NCBI GenBank assembly: GCA_016840165.1
Contig: JAEOSU010000027.1
Span: 1-64,000 of the forward strand
Source of the DNA: Promethearchaeota archaeon
GTDB lineage: Archaea; Asgardarchaeota; Lokiarchaeia; Sigyniarchaeales; SOKP01
DNA length: 64,000 nt
Direction: 5' to 3'
Position numbers and translations under genes: made by a program. A model generated the notes under the pieces. It was not told the DNA's origin. It did not search any database and was given only the letters and a program-made list of their open reading frames with translations. Positions 1,318 to 9,528 of this stretch are shown here, in pieces. Numbering within the stretch: position 1 is the first letter of the stretch; each line of letters begins with the position of its first letter.

Positions 1318-2409
1318 ATGGCGAACTTAATTAATACTTGCTTAATAGGGATAGGTGACGTCGCGAGTGCTTTGGTACAAGGTACAGAAAATTATAAGAA
1401 AAATCCCGACAATATTATAGGGTTATTACCAGAAATTACTCAATACTCGATTAATGATATCAAGTTTGTTCTGGGGGTGGAAGTAAATGCAAATAAAGTT
1501 GGAAAAGACTTAAGTGAGGCTATTTTTGCTGAGCCAAACTGTAATTTGAAACTATTTGAACCAAGCTTCTTGAATGCTCCCGTGATAAAAGGTCCTATTC
1601 TTGATGGATTAGACAGTAACATTAAAAATATTATTCCTATTGATGAAAATCAGAAAACGACTGAAATTATCGAAGAATTGAAACGATTTGATGTTGATGT
1701 AGTACTTATTTTACTTCCTACGGGATCCCATAAGGCTGTAAAATTCTATGCAAATGCCGCATTAGAGGCAGGTGCCAGTGTGGTGAATGGGATGCCCTCG
1801 TATGTAGCTAAAGATCCCGAATTAGTTAAAAAAGCCGAAAGATTAAGATTGTCCTTAATAGGTGATGATGTAAAATCGCAGATTGGAGCAACTATTATTC
1901 ATCGCTCTTTAGCAAATCTATTTCCTATGAGAGGAGCGATCTTAGACAGAACAATTCAACTTGATTGGGGAGGATCAAGCGATTTTCTTAATTTATTAAC
2001 TCCTATGGAAAATGGAAACCTTCGCTATGAAGAGGGGAAAAGACAATCGAAGACTGAAGCTGTTGTAGCCAATTTACAAAATCGAGACACTGTCGAATGC
2101 CAAATTTCTGCAGTAGATTACATCCCTTTCATAAAAAATCAAAAAGAGGCATATATGCGATTGGAAGGGAGAATTTTCGGAGGTGCTCCAGTCCGTGTAG
2201 ATATTACAATGTTTGTGGAAGATGGCAATAATTCTGCGGGAATATTAGCTGATTGTATTCGAGTCTCCAAAATTGCCAAAGATCGAGGAGTAGGAGGAGT
2301 TCTTAATTCAGCATGTTCATTCTTTAGTAAGCATCCTCCTGAACAGCTAGATGACATTGTTGCTAAAAAGAGACTTGTTGAGTTCATAGAAGGAAAACGA
2401 GAGTGTTAA
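1318..2409 (+). CDS. ino1: Inositol-1-phosphate (1L-myo-inositol-3-phosphate) synthase
   Basis: This enzyme isomerises glucose 6-phosphate to inositol phosphate using NAD. The 363-residue length fits the short archaeal type. The N-terminus has the Rossmann motif GIGDVASALV (about residues 11-20). The conserved catalytic block GDDVKSQIGATIIHRSL lies at about residues 182-198, matching the family GDD-K-G-T pattern, and LTPMENGN-like segments follow. The product is the precursor of inositol phospholipid head groups and soluble inositol phosphates. It is convergent with an ATP-grasp gene that resembles inositol-phosphate kinases, which makes the locus notable. The ATG at 1318 is supported by a TATA-like box at leaderless spacing. 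Confidence 0.92.
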   Translation: MANLINTCLIGIGDVASALVQGTENYKKNPDNIIGLLPEITQYSINDIKFVLGVEVNANKVGKDLSEAIFAEPNCNLKLFEPSFLNAPVIKGPILDGLDSNIKNIIPIDENQKTTEIIEELKRFDVDVVLILLPTGSHKAVKFYANAALEAGASVVNGMPSYVAKDPELVKKAERLRLSLIGDDVKSQIGATIIHRSLANLFPMRGAILDRTIQLDWGGSSDFLNLLTPMENGNLRYEEGKRQSKTEAVVANLQNRDTVECQISAVDYIPFIKNQKEAYMRLEGRIFGGAPVRVDITMFVEDGNNSAGILADCIRVSKIAKDRGVGGVLNSACSFFSKHPPEQLDDIVAKKRLVEFIEGKREC

Positions 2410-2437
2410 ATAAAAAGTTTAAAATAAGTGAGTTTTC

Positions 2438-3349
2438 TTAACCCTTAATCTTCACTTTTGTTTTATAGTGTTGTTCTCGAATATTAATTAAATTATAGAT
2501 ATGGTCAGATATAAGACTAATACCCTCAGGAATACTTCTAAAACTCGGGAAATCATTAATATCCACTATATAAGAGCCTTCATCAGTTAAAACATAGTCT
2601 ACTCCAAATATAGACATCCCAAATTTTCTTCCTAATCGTTTAATTCTTCGTTTTAAATCTTCTGCGATGGGGACCCGAATATGAACAAGCTCTAAAGGCG
2701 ATAAATTATAATTAAGATTTAAACGGTTATGGGAAACCACAGAAACCACCCATCTACCTATAACATAAACTTTATTAATCATATCATGTCTTCCTAAATA
2801 CTGTTGAAAGAAAAGATCTCTTTCATCATATCCATGGATAAGATCATAGAATTCATTAAAGTTTTTTGCTATTCCTATTATCCTATCGTTTTTTGGTACA
2901 TTGCCAAGATTATGGGAATCTAACTTAATGATGATTTGGTTTTTCTTTAAGAGCGCTTTAACCGCCTCATTAATAGAGTAATAGGTTTGGGGAATTTTTA
3001 ATTTCTTAATTCTTTTTTCTAATAGTTGAAAAGTTTCTTTTCGGCTTTCACACATCTTAACTGAATTGATGCTATTTAATATAGGAATATTAAGATCTAG
3101 TTCTTGAAGTGCTTTGTAAATAACTATATTGTCTTTATGAGTGGTTAGTTTAAGAATAATAAAAGAAATAGGGTATTTCTTTAATTTTTTTACCAAAACT
3201 TTTTTATCAAAGGGTTTCTGCTCATTTTTAAGTAAATCTACAACATAAATATTATAATTTGTCAAGAGGAATTTCTTTATTTTATTAAAAATCTCTCTAT
3301 CTCTATTGACTATAGCTAATATATATGTTTTTTTAATATTGTTAGCCAC
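2438..3349 (-). CDS. ATP-grasp enzyme, RimK/inositol-phosphate-kinase-like
   Basis: A 303-residue ATP-grasp protein. The C-terminal metal-binding strand reads FGVDYVLTDEGSYIVDINDFPSF, with the Asp and Asn of DIN at residues 263-265. An ATP-contacting segment IIIKLDSH lies near residue 140 and FFQQYL near 180. The pattern FGVD...VIDINDFPSF also occurs in inositol 1,3,4-trisphosphate 5/6-kinases (ITPK) and in RimK ligases. The gene converges on ino1 with only 28 nt between them, so an inositol-phosphate substrate is an attractive inference. RimK-like amino-acid ligation remains possible. The start is GTG at 3349, with a TATA-like TATATAAA near 3393-3400 upstream. Confidence 0.75.
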   Translation of the reverse strand: MANNIKKTYILAIVNRDREIFNKIKKFLLTNYNIYVVDLLKNEQKPFDKKVLVKKLKKYPISFIILKLTTHKDNIVIYKALQELDLNIPILNSINSVKMCESRKETFQLLEKRIKKLKIPQTYYSINEAVKALLKKNQIIIKLDSHNLGNVPKNDRIIGIAKNFNEFYDLIHGYDERDLFFQQYLGRHDMINKVYVIGRWVVSVVSHNRLNLNYNLSPLELVHIRVPIAEDLKRRIKRLGRKFGMSIFGVDYVLTDEGSYIVDINDFPSFRSIPEGISLISDHIYNLINIREQHYKTKVKIKG

Positions 3350-3593
3350 AGAAAAAACCCTATTAGTTTGATTTCTTTAAAACAAACTAACCTATATAAA
3401 TATATTGATAATAAAGACTTATTAGCGAAATAAATTTCCCCTCAAATATCGTTCTTTATTATAGAAGTTCCAATATTTACTTCTTATTATCATTTTAGTT
3501 AGAATTTATTTATACGAGATTTAATTATAAGATTTAATAGAATCATATCACGTAATAATAAAAGAATCTATTCTGATTAAACGGGCTCAAAAG

Positions 3594-4412
3594 TTGAAAA
3601 AAATAGGACTCATAATAGATAAATATCATTTAGAGAAGAAAGTTCAAGAGTTTATTGCTTATATGAAAAAAGTATGTAAGTTAGCGATCTATATTGAAGA
3701 GGAATATCTATTAACTTTTGATCAAACTAATTACGATGAAGATTTATTTTTTGTCAAAGGAAAAGGAGATTTGATTCTTAGTTTGGCAAAATTGATAGAA
3801 AGAGAAACAGATGTTCCAGTGATTAATTCCTCGAAAGGAATTTGGCTGGCTTATAACAGATTTTTGAATAGTACACTACTAAGAAACGCTGGTATTAAGG
3901 TTCCTAACTTCTCTCTTAATCCAAAAGAAGATTCACCTCCATTTAAAGATTATATTGTAAAAAATGTACGAGATCAAGATAATTATGATTTTGATCCAAA
4001 AATCCAACCATATGATAACTCTATAGAAGTAAAAGATCAAAGAGCAATAGAAGAAGTATATGGAAAACATGCGCAATATACCTTTTTTTATTATCAAGAA
4101 TATATTGAAAGTGAATTTGAATATAAGATCTATGGAGTTGGAGAGGATTTATACTACTTTAAGCAAAAACCAATTTTACGTGATCCGAATAAGATGAAAT
4201 CGCGAGTAAAGATTGATCCTATAGCGGAATTAGGAGAAATTGCTTATAAAGCAATGGAAATATTTAACTTAAGTATCACATCGTTAGATTTTCTAAAATC
4301 AGAAGAAGACATTTTTTATCTGACAGATGTTAATTCTACACCTAATTTCAATTATCTAAAGAATGGCCCCCAGATTGTTGGCAATTACTTATTGCAGCAA
4401 GCAAGAAGGTGA
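3594..4412 (+). CDS. ATP-grasp family ligase/kinase
   Basis: A 272-residue protein starting with TTG at 3594 (no ATG is in frame nearby). The middle has a substrate/ATP lobe (YIVKNVRDQDNYDF, about residues 121-134) and a QEYIE strand near residue 180. The metal-binding strand DVNSTPNF at residues 245-252 has the Asp-x-Asn of active ATP-grasp enzymes. The substrate is not evident. It is followed after 12 nt by another ATP-grasp gene and then a HAD phosphatase overlapping by 4 nt, so the three are very likely co-transcribed. It diverges from the first ATP-grasp gene across 244 nt of AT-rich promoter region. Confidence 0.7.
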   Translation: MKKIGLIIDKYHLEKKVQEFIAYMKKVCKLAIYIEEEYLLTFDQTNYDEDLFFVKGKGDLILSLAKLIERETDVPVINSSKGIWLAYNRFLNSTLLRNAGIKVPNFSLNPKEDSPPFKDYIVKNVRDQDNYDFDPKIQPYDNSIEVKDQRAIEEVYGKHAQYTFFYYQEYIESEFEYKIYGVGEDLYYFKQKPILRDPNKMKSRVKIDPIAELGEIAYKAMEIFNLSITSLDFLKSEEDIFYLTDVNSTPNFNYLKNGPQIVGNYLLQQARR

Positions 4413-4424
4413 TGTGAAGAAATA

Positions 4425-5213
4425 ATGAAAATTGGGATACTCTCAAAGCGAGAAACAGGATTAGTTGAGAAGATTCGCTCCTATTATGCAGAAAGTGGGA
4501 ATAAAGTTACATTATATACCTCAAATAATTTAGAGGTCAACTCTTCGCTTTTTGAGAATGATTTTTATATTTTAAAATCGAAACAATTACTTTTTCTTTA
4601 TGCGGGGTATTTTCTTCATATAAACCATATTCCTGTGATTCCAGATCCAATAATAAGCTATAAGCATAAAAATAGAGTTGAGTCATATTATTCAATTAAG
4701 AATTGTGGACTAAACACACCCAAAATATATATGGGGACACCCCAGACCATTAAAGTAAAAACATCAGCCTCGGATTACCCCTTAATAGTAAAAGATTTAA
4801 TGGGATCGGGCAGTAAGGGAATTAAAATAATTGAGAGTGCTAATGATCTTGATTCTTATACGAATAACATATTATATCTCGAGAAATATATAGAAGGAAC
4901 CCATTATTTAGCATATTTTGTGAATGAAGAGATATGCGTGGGCGAAAAACAGCCACTTGCTAATGAACATTCTGAAGTAAGACTCATTAATCCAGAAAAA
5001 GATATTAAAAAAGCTTTAATGACATGGCGTGTAAAATACAATCTCCTTTTTGGGCATTTAGATATGATAAGAGAAAAGAAGACCAATAAATTAATTGTGG
5101 TAGATCCGGGCACTTTTCCAGAATTTACTAATTGGAAAGCAGATAATAATTTGGTATCAAAAATTTGCAATTTAATCTTAGAAAGATACCAAGAACGGAG
5201 GTATAATGGATGA
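4425..5213 (+). CDS. ATP-grasp-like protein with altered metal-binding strand
   Basis: A 262-residue protein, second gene of the plus-strand operon. The ATP-grasp features are LIVKDLMGSGSKGIKII (about residues 121-137), a glycine-rich loop over the nucleotide, then LYLEKYIEG (about 150-158), equivalent to the hinge region. The C-terminal strand reads VVDPGTFPEF (residues 225-234). It keeps the first Asp, but Gly sits where the usual Asn metal ligand is found in its two neighbours (DINDFP, DVNSTP). It may have weak or different metal binding, or act as a partner subunit. Its stop overlaps the start of the next gene. Confidence 0.65.
   Translation: MKIGILSKRETGLVEKIRSYYAESGNKVTLYTSNNLEVNSSLFENDFYILKSKQLLFLYAGYFLHINHIPVIPDPIISYKHKNRVESYYSIKNCGLNTPKIYMGTPQTIKVKTSASDYPLIVKDLMGSGSKGIKIIESANDLDSYTNNILYLEKYIEGTHYLAYFVNEEICVGEKQPLANEHSEVRLINPEKDIKKALMTWRVKYNLLFGHLDMIREKKTNKLIVVDPGTFPEFTNWKADNNLVSKICNLILERYQERRYNG
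5197..5202 (+). promoter_or_regulatory. Strong Shine-Dalgarno site before the HAD phosphatase
   Basis: GGAGGT lies 7 nt before the ATG at 5210, inside the end of the preceding gene. It supports translation from the overlapping ATGA start and fixes the start of the HAD protein. Confidence 0.7.
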
Positions 5214-6172
5214 GTGAAAAAGAGTTAAAAGAGTTAACCTCAAAATATCAAAAAGTAAGGTTATATAAAATAAAACATTTCATTTTTGATTTTGGGGGGG
5301 TTTTAATAGAAAAATCATTTGTCTTAAAGAATTTATTAAATATTATTGAACAAGATTTACACATCAAACTTCCAGATAAAAATGTGGACCCTCATCTTAG
5401 AAAATTACGCAGAAGGCTCTCATCGGGAAGAATTTCTGCAAGAGAGTTTTTAAATCATATTATTGAAAAGTATTATTATCCAAATCAGAATAAGAATGGA
5501 GCCCTACCACCAAAAGAAGTAAATATTGAATATTATTTGGAGTTATGGTTTAATCTATATACGAAAGTTACTAATTTTTCTTATGAAATGGCAGAGATCG
5601 TAGAGCGGTTACATAAAGCGGGATATACTGTTAGTTTAATGTCTAATACCTATGATATTCATGCTAAATCGAATGAATTGAGAGGATTTTACGATATCTT
5701 TGATAATGTTTTTCTTTCTAATGAAATCGGTTACATTAAACCAGATATGGAGAAATACAAATATGTATTGAAAAAGTTAGATACTAAACCCAAAAAGTGC
5801 GTATTTATTGATGATAAATTGGCTAACTTAATTCCAGCTCACCAATTAGGTATAATCGTGATAAGATTCGAATCTTTAGAAAAGTTTAAGGACACTTTAA
5901 AAGAAATTGGAATTGAAAAGATTAAACCAGATCTTCGAAAAGAAATTAAAAAGAAATATAAAAAGTATAAATCCAAGAAAAAAGAATATAAAAAAGCTAA
6001 AAAGGAGTATAAAAAAGCAAAAAAGGAATATTTAAAAAAAAAGCATAAAAAATCTCTGAAAAGAAGAGCTGAATTTCTACATAAGCGATTGATATATAAG
6101 AAAAAAAAAGAAGAATATAAAAAACACAAGAGAAAAAAAAAAGAATTAGTCTCAGAATTCAGAATTGCTTAA
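5210..6172 (+). CDS. HAD-family phosphatase with lysine-rich coiled tail
   Basis: A 320-residue protein. Residues 22-225 form a HAD-superfamily phosphatase: motif I is DFGGV (27-31), motif II includes LMSNT (about 142-146), then GYIKPD with its lysine and the acidic motif FIDDK (about 199-203). In motif I the second Asp is Gly, as in many HAD-IA proteins of the epoxide-hydrolase-N-domain/YihX type, so activity on a phosphorylated substrate is likely but specificity is unknown. From about residue 244 to the end the protein is an almost uninterrupted Lys/Tyr/Glu helix with tandem KKEYKKA units. This could bind nucleic acid, polyphosphate or an acidic membrane. Translation is coupled to the ATP-grasp gene upstream. 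Confidence 0.8.
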   Translation: MSEKELKELTSKYQKVRLYKIKHFIFDFGGVLIEKSFVLKNLLNIIEQDLHIKLPDKNVDPHLRKLRRRLSSGRISAREFLNHIIEKYYYPNQNKNGALPPKEVNIEYYLELWFNLYTKVTNFSYEMAEIVERLHKAGYTVSLMSNTYDIHAKSNELRGFYDIFDNVFLSNEIGYIKPDMEKYKYVLKKLDTKPKKCVFIDDKLANLIPAHQLGIIVIRFESLEKFKDTLKEIGIEKIKPDLRKEIKKKYKKYKSKKKEYKKAKKEYKKAKKEYLKKKHKKSLKRRAEFLHKRLIYKKKKEEYKKHKRKKKELVSEFRIA

Positions 6173-6190: not shown

Positions 6191-7300
6191 TTATTCTTTT
6201 TCCTCTGCATTATCCTGTTTTTCAGATTGTTCCTTGTTAAAGTCTTCGACTTTCTGCATTACAGATTCTTTAGGTGTCGCAGGAAGAGGCATTTTCTCAT
6301 AGACTTCAATAAATTTGACATCTTCAATTTCGTCAGCCATATGGGTCTGAAGATCCATCGCCAGGCCAAATTTTACATAAGTAAGGTTCTGAAAAAGGAA
6401 CATCTTAGGAATTGTGATTTCTAAACTCTTATCGTTCTCATTATAGTTAACTTGAAAGTCATGCACATTTTCTTTTGGTATTCCTTTTGAAGTCATAAAA
6501 TATTCGATCTTCTCATTAAAATCCTCAATTTTATCTATAACTTCTAAATTATAGTCTATCGATTGTCCGGCTAATGGATGATTATAATCAACAATAACTC
6601 TTCCTTGAGTGATATTAGTAACAACTCCTCGCTGGCCCGTTCCTTTTTTTACAAATTCTTGTCCATATTCAGGGTTCTTACCATCATTAAGTTTTCGAAA
6701 CTTAGAAATGCCAATTCTTTCAATCTTTTTTGGATCTCTTTTCCCAAATGCCTTGGTAGGAGGGATTCTTACCGATTTTTTCTCAAAATAATTCATTGTT
6801 TCCAGAAATTCCGTTAGACCTTCATTTAAAAAACCTGGTTTTCCAACGATCACAAATTCAGGAGTATAATATCCTTGTTTTGCCTTTTCTTCATCAAATA
6901 TACCCGCCATTTTCGCGTCTTCTTCAGAAGATACTCTAAAGATTGTTCCTCTCTGAGATTTCCCGGTTATTTTTACTAAAACAAAATCATCCTTATTTAC
7001 TTTCTTACCCATAAGCCGTTTCTTTTTTTCTTCAACTTTTTTTAGTTCATCAGCGACTTTTTCTTTTTCTAGCGCATCATCTTGGGTTTCTACTGTTGAA
7101 GCTTTTGCAGGTTGATCTAAACCTAATAACTCCTTAGCGTTTTCAATGAATTTTTCAGCAGAAGTTTTTCCAATTCCCTTAATATCCACTAAATCTTCAA
7201 CTTTAGAATTAGCAAGCTTTTCTACTGAATCAATGCCTGCTTCTTTAAGATTCTCCGCTTTTTTACCTAAACCCTTGACGTCATCTAATTTTAGGCTCAT
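6191..7300 (-). CDS. FKBP/SlyD-type peptidyl-prolyl isomerase with N-terminal helix-hairpin-helix
   Basis: A 369-residue protein. Residues 1-60 carry two helix-hairpin-helix units (DVKGLGKKAENLKEAGI and VDIKGIGKTSAEKFIENA), like the N-terminal domain of RadA/Rad51 or DUF4332. A charged linker (about 65-95) leads to the FKBP domain (about 98-260) with its inserted SlyD-like flap. The conserved strand VIVDYNHPLAGQ follows the insertion, and a C-terminal beta domain (about 275-345) resembles the extra domain of long archaeal FKBPs. It is a folding helper for proline bonds. The HhH module is unusual and suggests recruitment to nucleic acid or a protein partner. It is convergent with the HAD gene after 18 nt. 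Confidence 0.85.
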   Translation of the reverse strand: MSLKLDDVKGLGKKAENLKEAGIDSVEKLANSKVEDLVDIKGIGKTSAEKFIENAKELLGLDQPAKASTVETQDDALEKEKVADELKKVEEKKKRLMGKKVNKDDFVLVKITGKSQRGTIFRVSSEEDAKMAGIFDEEKAKQGYYTPEFVIVGKPGFLNEGLTEFLETMNYFEKKSVRIPPTKAFGKRDPKKIERIGISKFRKLNDGKNPEYGQEFVKKGTGQRGVVTNITQGRVIVDYNHPLAGQSIDYNLEVIDKIEDFNEKIEYFMTSKGIPKENVHDFQVNYNENDKSLEITIPKMFLFQNLTYVKFGLAMDLQTHMADEIEDVKFIEVYEKMPLPATPKESVMQKVEDFNKEQSEKQDNAEEKE

Positions 7301-8583: not shown

Positions 8584-9315
8584 TTATGTTTCAAAACTCA
8601 GCCATTTAAGAATATTTTCTAAAAACTTTATATTATCTCCCGCATCCAGGCCAAAATCTGAATCTTCAAGTAAGAAATCAGAAGATCCGACCGTAACACA
8701 TCTTCCGCTGAAAAATTCAGAAACAACACAAATTGGAACCGACCCTATCGCCCCGGTGTCATCATCCATATAGTATTTGAACTCTGCTTTTTCTGAAGTC
8801 AAAATGATATCTTCAACATCCTCTTCAGTAATAGTGAAGAATGTACAATTTGGGAGGACTAATTCAGTGATACCCTCAGTTATAGGATGGTTAAATAGTT
8901 CATTTACTAGAATATTATCTCTATTAACTAAAAAATTTGATGAAGATTCTTGAATTATCCCATTCCAGAATCTGCGAACTCCGGTAATTTTATATAACAC
9001 TCGAATTGATCCCATTTTCATTGGGATATCCCTATCACCGCCATCACCACTAGTAAAGAAAAGTGAACCGCCTTCGCCAACATATTTCTTGATAGCTTTT
9101 AATTCATCAACTGTAAATTTATCTTCTTTACGATCTTTACTTTGCTGAATATTGCCAATGAAGAGAATATCATAATCCTCAAGAATATCAAAGTCAATAG
9201 GACCTTCATTCTTATCTATGTAATCGATGTCGTAATCTTCTTCATCAAGTACAAACTCCGGAAATTCTTCTATTTTTTCTCTATGAGTGAGATCGACTAA
9301 AATAGAATAACTCAT
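8584..9315 (-). CDS. GIFT-domain protein (IFT52/GldG-like, class-I amidotransferase-like fold)
   Basis: A 243-residue soluble protein. The central part reads FTVDELKAIKKYVGEGGSLF and then GDGGD, followed by a conserved VNRDNILVNELFNHPIT stretch. This order (a lid helix, a GGS strand, GxGG, then NxxxNxxLxHPIT) is how I recognise the GIFT domain shared by eukaryotic IFT52 and bacterial gliding/ABC accessory proteins. I see no catalytic Cys/His pair, so it is more likely a binding domain than an amidotransferase. The ATG at 9315 is preferred over the GTG at 9324 because GGAG at 9326-9329 is 10 nt from the ATG but only 1 nt from the GTG. Function unknown. Confidence 0.6.
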   Translation of the reverse strand: MSYSILVDLTHREKIEEFPEFVLDEEDYDIDYIDKNEGPIDFDILEDYDILFIGNIQQSKDRKEDKFTVDELKAIKKYVGEGGSLFFTSGDGGDRDIPMKMGSIRVLYKITGVRRFWNGIIQESSSNFLVNRDNILVNELFNHPITEGITELVLPNCTFFTITEEDVEDIILTSEKAEFKYYMDDDTGAIGSVPICVVSEFFSGRCVTVGSSDFLLEDSDFGLDAGDNIKFLENILKWLSFET

Positions 9316-9528
9316 GTTTAACACACTCCATGTATTATTGATTGAGTATATATAGGCTGGTTTAAATGCTTAATCTAAGTTTCTTGCGTTTTAATTCTTA
9401 CATATTATATGTAATAGATTTTTATAAAGCTTTCTAAATTGTAGCATTTAAACTTTACCCCTATTTAATATTATTAATTTCGTAAAGATAACCAGATAGA
9501 TTAAATATATAAAAAGAGAGGAGATCAA

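Follow-up and report, generated by a model that had tools for sequence, protein, structure and literature searches.

Inositol polyphosphates are treated as a signalling currency of eukaryotes, and Desfougeres et al. reportedly proposed in 2019 (in PNAS) that inositol phosphates predate eukaryotes. In the published work drawn on here, ITPKs are known from Lokiarchaeota, with four ITPK1 homologues in one genome (Desfougeres et al. 2019; PMC7356102, PMC8024741, PMC7695695), which gave a first hint of an older origin, and a route by which ITPK1 leads from inositol 3-phosphate (Ins(3)P) to inositol hexakisphosphate (InsP6) is in print (the same three sources). Eukaryotic ITPK1 uses Ins(3)P, the very compound that the synthase INO1 makes (PMC7695695); two further papers were also consulted (PMC10897400, PMC7278568). 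We analysed a locus of a Promethearchaeota archaeon with an Asgard genome of Lokiarchaeota type, in which INO1 lies beside three ATP-grasp genes, here GA, GB and GC, and a HAD hydrolase gene. It stands at the start of contig JAEOSU010000027.1 (assembly GCA_016840165.1), the first 64,000 nucleotides of which were analysed and are called the window. A first-pass annotation made from the sequence alone had marked the same five open reading frames, all of which exist where it placed them, with identities that were checked by Pfam and structure; its remark that a multi-kinase route has no clear archaeal precedent was wrong, because archaeal ITPKs and the ITPK1 route were already published. What is new is the linkage of the ITPK-like GA to INO1, in a block with GB and GC. 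In the titles and abstract openings covered, which represent the literature in part, we found no account of a conserved INO1/ATP-grasp block or of GB or GC.

Conservation of the INO1/ATP-grasp block in archaeal genomes

INO1, GA, GB and GC form a conserved unit and not a chance cluster. We searched 148 Asgard genomes, taking E<=1e-10 as a match for INO1 and E<=1e-20 for HAD. INO1 was matched in 138 of them, and INO1 of the block type (77-100% identity to INO1 of the window, the other listed INO1s reaching at most 46%) in 21. GA was present in these same 21 genomes (G125 has only a piece of it, where a contig ends), GB in 20 of them and GC in 19; in the exceptions, G119 and G137, the contig stops at the block (loci L050 and L036). 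GB and GC were also found in G077, at a contig edge and without INO1 or GA. In a search of 227 genomes with a GC profile, GC was detected at E<=4.2e-83 in 43 genomes, all of one family, and 9 further genomes outside that family gave weak matches (E 2e-12 to 9e-9).

Gene order was counted in 40 Lokiarchaeota loci (L096-L135). The first-pass annotation had named a gene order not conserved with INO1 as a point that would tell against its reading, and the opposite was found: the immediate convergent neighbour of GA is INO1 in 38 of the 40 loci (one of the 38 is cut by a contig end); of the two others, one stops where its contig ends and the other, L135, has additional genes inserted. On its divergent side GA is directly adjoined by GB in 33 loci, with a median gap of 237 bp (base pairs; range 124-442); in five loci one gene lies between them (418-419 residues, identified as an MFS transporter in the scan of L034) and in two the contig ends. 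GB and GC follow each other closely (median gap 14 bp over 36 loci). The block is embedded in a longer conserved stretch: it is bordered on one side by a fourth ATP-grasp gene (GD), BacA and the genes of a low-molecular-weight phosphatase and a nicotinamidase, and on the opposite side by genes of the FKBP, radical SAM, GIFT-like and proteasome kinds.

Two loci define the core as these four genes, with HAD and GD as accessories. At L051 (in the sister genome G086) the flanks are kept (FKBP, a 952-residue gene, a dehydrogenase, MFS and GD), and INO1, GA, GB, GC and HAD are absent as a single segment between the FKBP and 952-residue genes. In L136, a contig of Candidatus Thermoplasmatota isolate ETNP2_MAG_1 (46% G+C), INO1, GC, GB and GA stand together with none of the Lokiarchaeota flanking genes; HAD is absent and GD was not seen. 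Identities to the window are 64.5% for INO1, 38.9% for GC, 39.8% for GB and 31.2% for GA. The genome that hosts L136 gave no second INO1 at E<=1e-5, and among 12 genomes of its Thermoplasmatota class GB was found only in the host itself, the other 11 lacking it. In Lokiarchaeota CR_4 (L138) GA adjoins GB, and ordinary INO1s are located elsewhere.

Sequence families of the three ATP-grasp proteins

The alignments used below comprise 26 of 41 available rows for GA, 25 of 38 for GB, 24 of 36 for GC and 22 of 31 for GD, the window rows included. GA, which the first-pass annotation had already taken for kinase-like, is by its sequence ITPK-like, a member of a kind already known. The window GA scores 24.9 bits with the ITPK model PF05770 (cut-off 23), all 26 members match it at E<=0.01, and in a profile search of the PDB ITPKs fill ranks 1-10 (E 1.5e-7 to 3.6e-4), followed by an alpha-L-glutamate ligase (E 0.018); no match to the ligase family TIGR00768 was found for GA at E<=1. 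K193, D251, D263 and N265 are invariant in the 26 members; the D..DxN pattern aligns to the human D/DIN, and K193 occupies in every member the position of K199 of human ITPK1 (HsITPK1), a residue named as highly conserved in a published study (PMC12077091). The confidently predicted model of GA has the ATP-grasp fold, and VIA-align 2 places human ITPK1 first, in a tie with RimK and PPIP5K (Z 21.2, root-mean-square deviation 3.4, 256 aligned residues). GA differs from the known ITPKs in that it is only about 17-19% identical to human ITPK1 in structural alignment and has FPS for FPG. Its nearest named relative is from Candidatus Lokiarchaeota isolate AMARA_5S (81% identity).

GB and GC are, as judged by profile searches, ATP-grasp families without a name and not members of the ITPKs; in the window neither matches PF05770 at E<=0.01, and at that threshold only 3/25 GB and 5/24 GC members do so. 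For GB all ATP-grasp matches in Pfam and NCBIfam are below threshold (the RimK model PF08443 is matched weakly, at E<=0.01, by 17/25 members), and the full ATP-grasp fold is seen in its AlphaFold model (pLDDT 90, pTM 0.88). K178, D232, D245 and N247 are invariant in the 25 GB members, with K178 at the position of HsITPK1 K199. GC matches ATP-grasp_3 (PF02655), with 29.5 bits in the window (cut-off 23.2) and in 23/24 members, and D213, D227 and G229 are invariant in all 24. The ligases of the RimK/LysX/ArgX/MptN type (TIGR00768) share the fold with GB and GC and supply their best PDB profile matches, but the scores of GB (40.8) and GC (20.3) lie far under the cut-off of 143.4.

Kinases and ligases of this fold can be compared at two positions of the active site. 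In printed alignments, the solved ITPKs (maize, potato, human, Entamoeba and AtITPK4) have Lys and DxN in 5/5 cases, and the solved ligases ArgX, CdnC and PsnB have Arg and ExN in 3/3. The test comprised 9/26 GA, 9/25 GB, 8/24 GC and 6/22 GD alignment rows, with 30 RimK-family (TIGR00768) loci from 13 searched genomes as controls. Lys and DxN were present in all rows of GA (9/9), GB (9/9) and GD (6/6); all 8 GC rows have the Asp, no Lys and Gly for Asn. The ligase-type combination of Arg (DxR) and Glu (ExN) was found in none of the GA (0/9), GB (0/9) or GC (0/8) rows. Among the 30 controls, 19 have Arg and Glu, 9 have Lys and Asp (bacterial proteins, all under the family cut-off), one has neither Lys nor Arg together with Glu, and one is not covered. 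These counts include six loci without which the tree was built: L198 and L209 (not extracted, because the rule demanded a [DE][VIL]N motif, which biases the metal test), L207 (a fragment, also not extracted), and L191 (wrong open reading frame), L210 and L216 (removed by hand). L191, L198, L209 and L210 show Arg and Glu, the columns lie outside L207, and L216 is the row with Glu and neither Lys nor Arg.

In the resulting tree of 56 rows, 15 ligase rows (RimK/LysX/MptN type) split from all others at 100/100, GB and GC are sisters (98/90), and GA pairs with GD (87/82). GA, GB and GC thus lie outside the RimK/LysX ligase branch of this sequence tree, and the firm grouping with peptide or RimK ligases that the first-pass annotation had named as refuting its reading was not observed; of the checks that it suggested, the profile search brings GA to the ITPKs, and GB and GC score nearest LysX yet fall outside the ligase branch of the phylogeny. 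Of its three ATP-grasp enzymes, GB and GC do not qualify as ITPKs, and GC is without two of the active-site residues.

A candidate inositol-phosphate kinase pathway and its alternatives

We propose that INO1, GA, GB and GC, with HAD as an option, could constitute a soluble inositol-phosphate kinase block, a reading to which we give about an even chance of being correct. INO1, as its family and kept residues suggest, would convert glucose 6-phosphate to inositol 3-phosphate. This product is the candidate substrate of GA, which as an ITPK-type ATP-grasp kinase would phosphorylate it on further hydroxyls; GB, in which the kinase-type Lys and DxN are kept, might then add further phosphates. GC, lacking the Lys and the metal-site Asn, may assist GB in a specialised or regulatory role, as the two genes lie next to each other and the proteins group as sisters. 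More speculatively, the optional HAD may trim or reset the product. The order of the steps, the end product and the biological role are what we infer.

The block links Ins(3)P synthesis with an ITPK-like kinase and two further ATP-grasp families; it lends support from genomic context, points to the enzymes worth assaying, and opens the question whether archaea make inositol polyphosphates to direct testing. It hints that Lokiarchaeota, which stand near the ancestry of complex cells, may produce inositols that carry more phosphates. A wider claim can be put forward only tentatively, namely that a prokaryotic, lipid-independent inositol polyphosphate pathway is carried as one heritable block by a Lokiarchaeota family and a Thermoplasmatota lineage, in which INO1 acts with three ATP-grasp enzymes and GB and GC represent two novel inositol-phosphate kinase families or partners of such kinases.

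Several observations weigh against the kinase block. In the fold comparison of GA, RimK (Z 20.8) and PPIP5K (20.6) tie with ITPK, and Foldseek gives ArgX at rank 1 and maize ITPK1 at rank 3, so that the fold alone cannot separate ITPK from RimK; H167 and R212 of human ITPK1 are unmatched in GA, the printed GA alignments stopping short of them. The best PDB profile match of both GB (E 4.6e-5) and GC (E 1.2e-6) is the ArgX/LysX structure 3vpb, and in the structural comparison of the GB model LysX comes first (Z 23.8, deviation 3.2, 257 aligned), followed by RimK (22.8), PPIP5K (21.4) and ITPK (19.7). PPIP5K/Vip1 are themselves ATP-grasp inositol-phosphate kinases, and the GB model is closer to them than to ITPK, but GB is shorter and without the histidine-phosphatase domain described for PPIP5K (PMC8024741); the GB profile found no PPIP5K in the PDB at E<=1. 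GC has no Lys at the K199 position (0/8 rows) and Gly in place of the metal-site Asn in all 24 members, and a LysX above the LysX cut-off (G004:C1:629838, locus L200) is among its weak matches outside the family. Finally, the 56-row tree is composed without eukaryotic ITPK or PPIP5K sequences, and the nine bacterial Lys/Asp proteins fall on its GA-GD side; as they share Lys and DxN, the pattern is no proof of an inositol substrate and speaks more against RimK-type ligases than for inositol.

A ligase role of GB and GC is the main rival. GA would then phosphorylate once, on inositol phosphate supplied by INO1, and GB and GC would be carboxylate-amine ligases that add amino acids or another acid, yielding an inositol-based metabolite (a thiol, an osmolyte or a cell-surface compound). 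The nearness of GB and GC to LysX/ArgX in PDB profiles, and of GB also in structure, together with the RimK matches of GB and the ATP-grasp_3 matches of GC, speaks for such a conjugate pathway; however, GB carries Lys and Asp at the two positions that are Arg and Glu in the 19 ligase-type rows, all four ATP-grasp families stand apart from the 15 ligase rows, and the recurrent labelled neighbours included no recognised gene for a carrier protein, an aminotransferase or amino-acid biosynthesis. On balance we judge the conjugate pathway unlikely.

Archaetidylinositol, a relatively common archaeal lipid, is made from inositol phosphate (PMC9385802), and INO1 might feed its synthesis while the ATP-grasp proteins modify the head group. 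Fifteen of the 21 block genomes have the block INO1 as their sole INO1; there it must cover any lipid need, and this also counts against a purely soluble role since it may serve lipids too. Yet no CDP-alcohol transferase was recognised among the scanned neighbours (the transporters found are MFS), the predicted models of GA and GB look soluble, and the ordinary INO1 is nearly universal in the phylum (an INO1 match in 138 of 148 genomes) without the block, so that lipids need no GA, GB or GC; a head-group function therefore appears rather improbable. About equally improbable seems an old gene order kept by descent in one archaeal family with no common pathway, as the unrelated genes of the longer conserved stretch might suggest, because the four core genes stand together without those flanks in the Thermoplasmatota genome, are absent together at L051 with the flanks remaining, and INO1 and GA co-occur in 21/21 genomes.

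Organisation of the locus and accessory genes

The coordinates of the locus are listed in Table 1. The first-pass annotation was right about the co-directional run of GB, GC and HAD (12 bp between GB and GC, a 4-bp overlap of GC and HAD); its arrangement has to be corrected for GA, which is encoded on the other strand, converging with INO1 (28 bp between them) and diverging from GB. A single operon of INO1 and GA is thereby ruled out. The promoters of both GA and GB probably sit in the interval between these two genes, as predicted from geometry. In the window there was no Rfam match at gathering scores and no ARAGORN match.

Table 1. Features of the INO1/ATP-grasp locus, with positions in the window (aa, amino acids)
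Feature	Position	Strand	Basis and status
INO1 (block type), myo-inositol-3-phosphate synthase, 363 aa	1318-2409	+	PF01658; core
GA, ITPK-like ATP-grasp, 303 aa	2438-3349	-	PF05770; core; convergent with INO1
GA/GB divergent intergenic region	3350-3593	.	geometry only
GB, ATP-grasp of unnamed family, 272 aa, TTG start	3594-4412	+	ATP-grasp fold in AlphaFold model; core
GC, ATP-grasp_3-like, 262 aa, altered metal site (DxG)	4425-5213	+	PF02655; core; GB sister
HAD hydrolase, Lys-rich C-terminal tail, 320 aa	5210-6172	+	PF00702; accessory

INO1 of the window matches PF01658 with 75.6 bits (cut-off 27); with PF07994 it scores 20.5 bits, under the cut-off of 25, which the Thermoplasmatota copy exceeds (27.7). 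In a phylogenetic tree, built without the contig-cut L110 copy of INO1 and without L181, a duplicate locus, the block INO1s and the Thermoplasmatota copy form one branch (100/100) apart from the ordinary INO1s. The aligned block INO1s keep KxxxK before TE and K before AYMR, lysine positions reportedly catalytic in the archaeal synthase. Tandem INO1 paralogues, one ordinary and one shortened, occur at L128:12231-14449 and in G149 (contig C196), and the lysines of the shortened copy do not follow the usual pattern.

The HAD gene, which the first-pass annotation had counted in the set, is present here but is an optional extra, found in 26 of the 40 Lokiarchaeota loci and in 12 of the 21 block genomes. 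As a core gene it was rejected, since no copy was found in 14 of the 40 loci (contig ends cut some of these short) and L136 lacks it. The protein scores 54.1 bits with PF00702 (cut-off 26.4), and its top NCBIfam model, TIGR02247, gives 88.5 bits, under the cut-off of 125.4. Motif I reads DFGGV, with the first Asp kept and Gly at the second position, and is conserved in 12 copies. The tail is rich in Lys over about 80 residues (5930-6169), and 27 copies have 28-43 Lys/Arg in the final 90 residues; speculatively, it could hold a polyanion or the membrane. An ITPK-type kinase and a HAD are also combined in plant ITPK4, where a HAD-like domain that lacks some catalytic motifs is fused to the ITPK (PMC7614388). 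They are fused in plants and separate and optional here, and we draw a loose analogy with no claim of descent.

GD, the fourth ATP-grasp gene near INO1 in relatives (e.g., L096:12859-13755), matches PF05770 better than GA does (51.2 bits). All of its 22 members match this model, nine ITPKs lead its PDB profile list, and RimK is matched too, more weakly, by 18/22; in the test for R212, Arg206 of GD aligns to the Arg of human ITPK1. The gene stands next to BacA and phosphatase genes and persists where the block is absent. It was rejected as a core member, being kept without INO1 and GA in L051, L054, L055 and L060 and not seen in L136. A search for GD in the assembly of the window returned nothing beyond the GA match; the contig ends upstream of INO1, so that a loss and an assembly gap look alike there.

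Proteins of Actinobacteria and Ktedonobacteria (L139-L175, e.g., G151 and G152) have a GA-like D[IV]NDFPSF end with the kinase-type Lys and Asp; NCBIfam files them near RimK, below its cut-off.

Neighbouring genes

Since the window starts at a contig end, the side upstream of INO1 is cut off. Positions 2-1117 on the minus strand hold a contig-cut, secreted-looking protein, which is related to a 1068-residue protein that L100 encodes between its INO1 and MFS genes. Downstream of HAD, positions 6191-7300 encode an FKBP26-like peptidyl-prolyl isomerase with an added N-terminal helix-hairpin-helix domain, and positions 8584-9324 give a weak match to the IFT52 GIFT domain (27.5 bits, cut-off 27.2), conserved beside a radical SAM gene. 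In the Thermoplasmatota locus, a xylose isomerase-like TIM barrel (PF01261; L136:10849-11646) directly follows GA.

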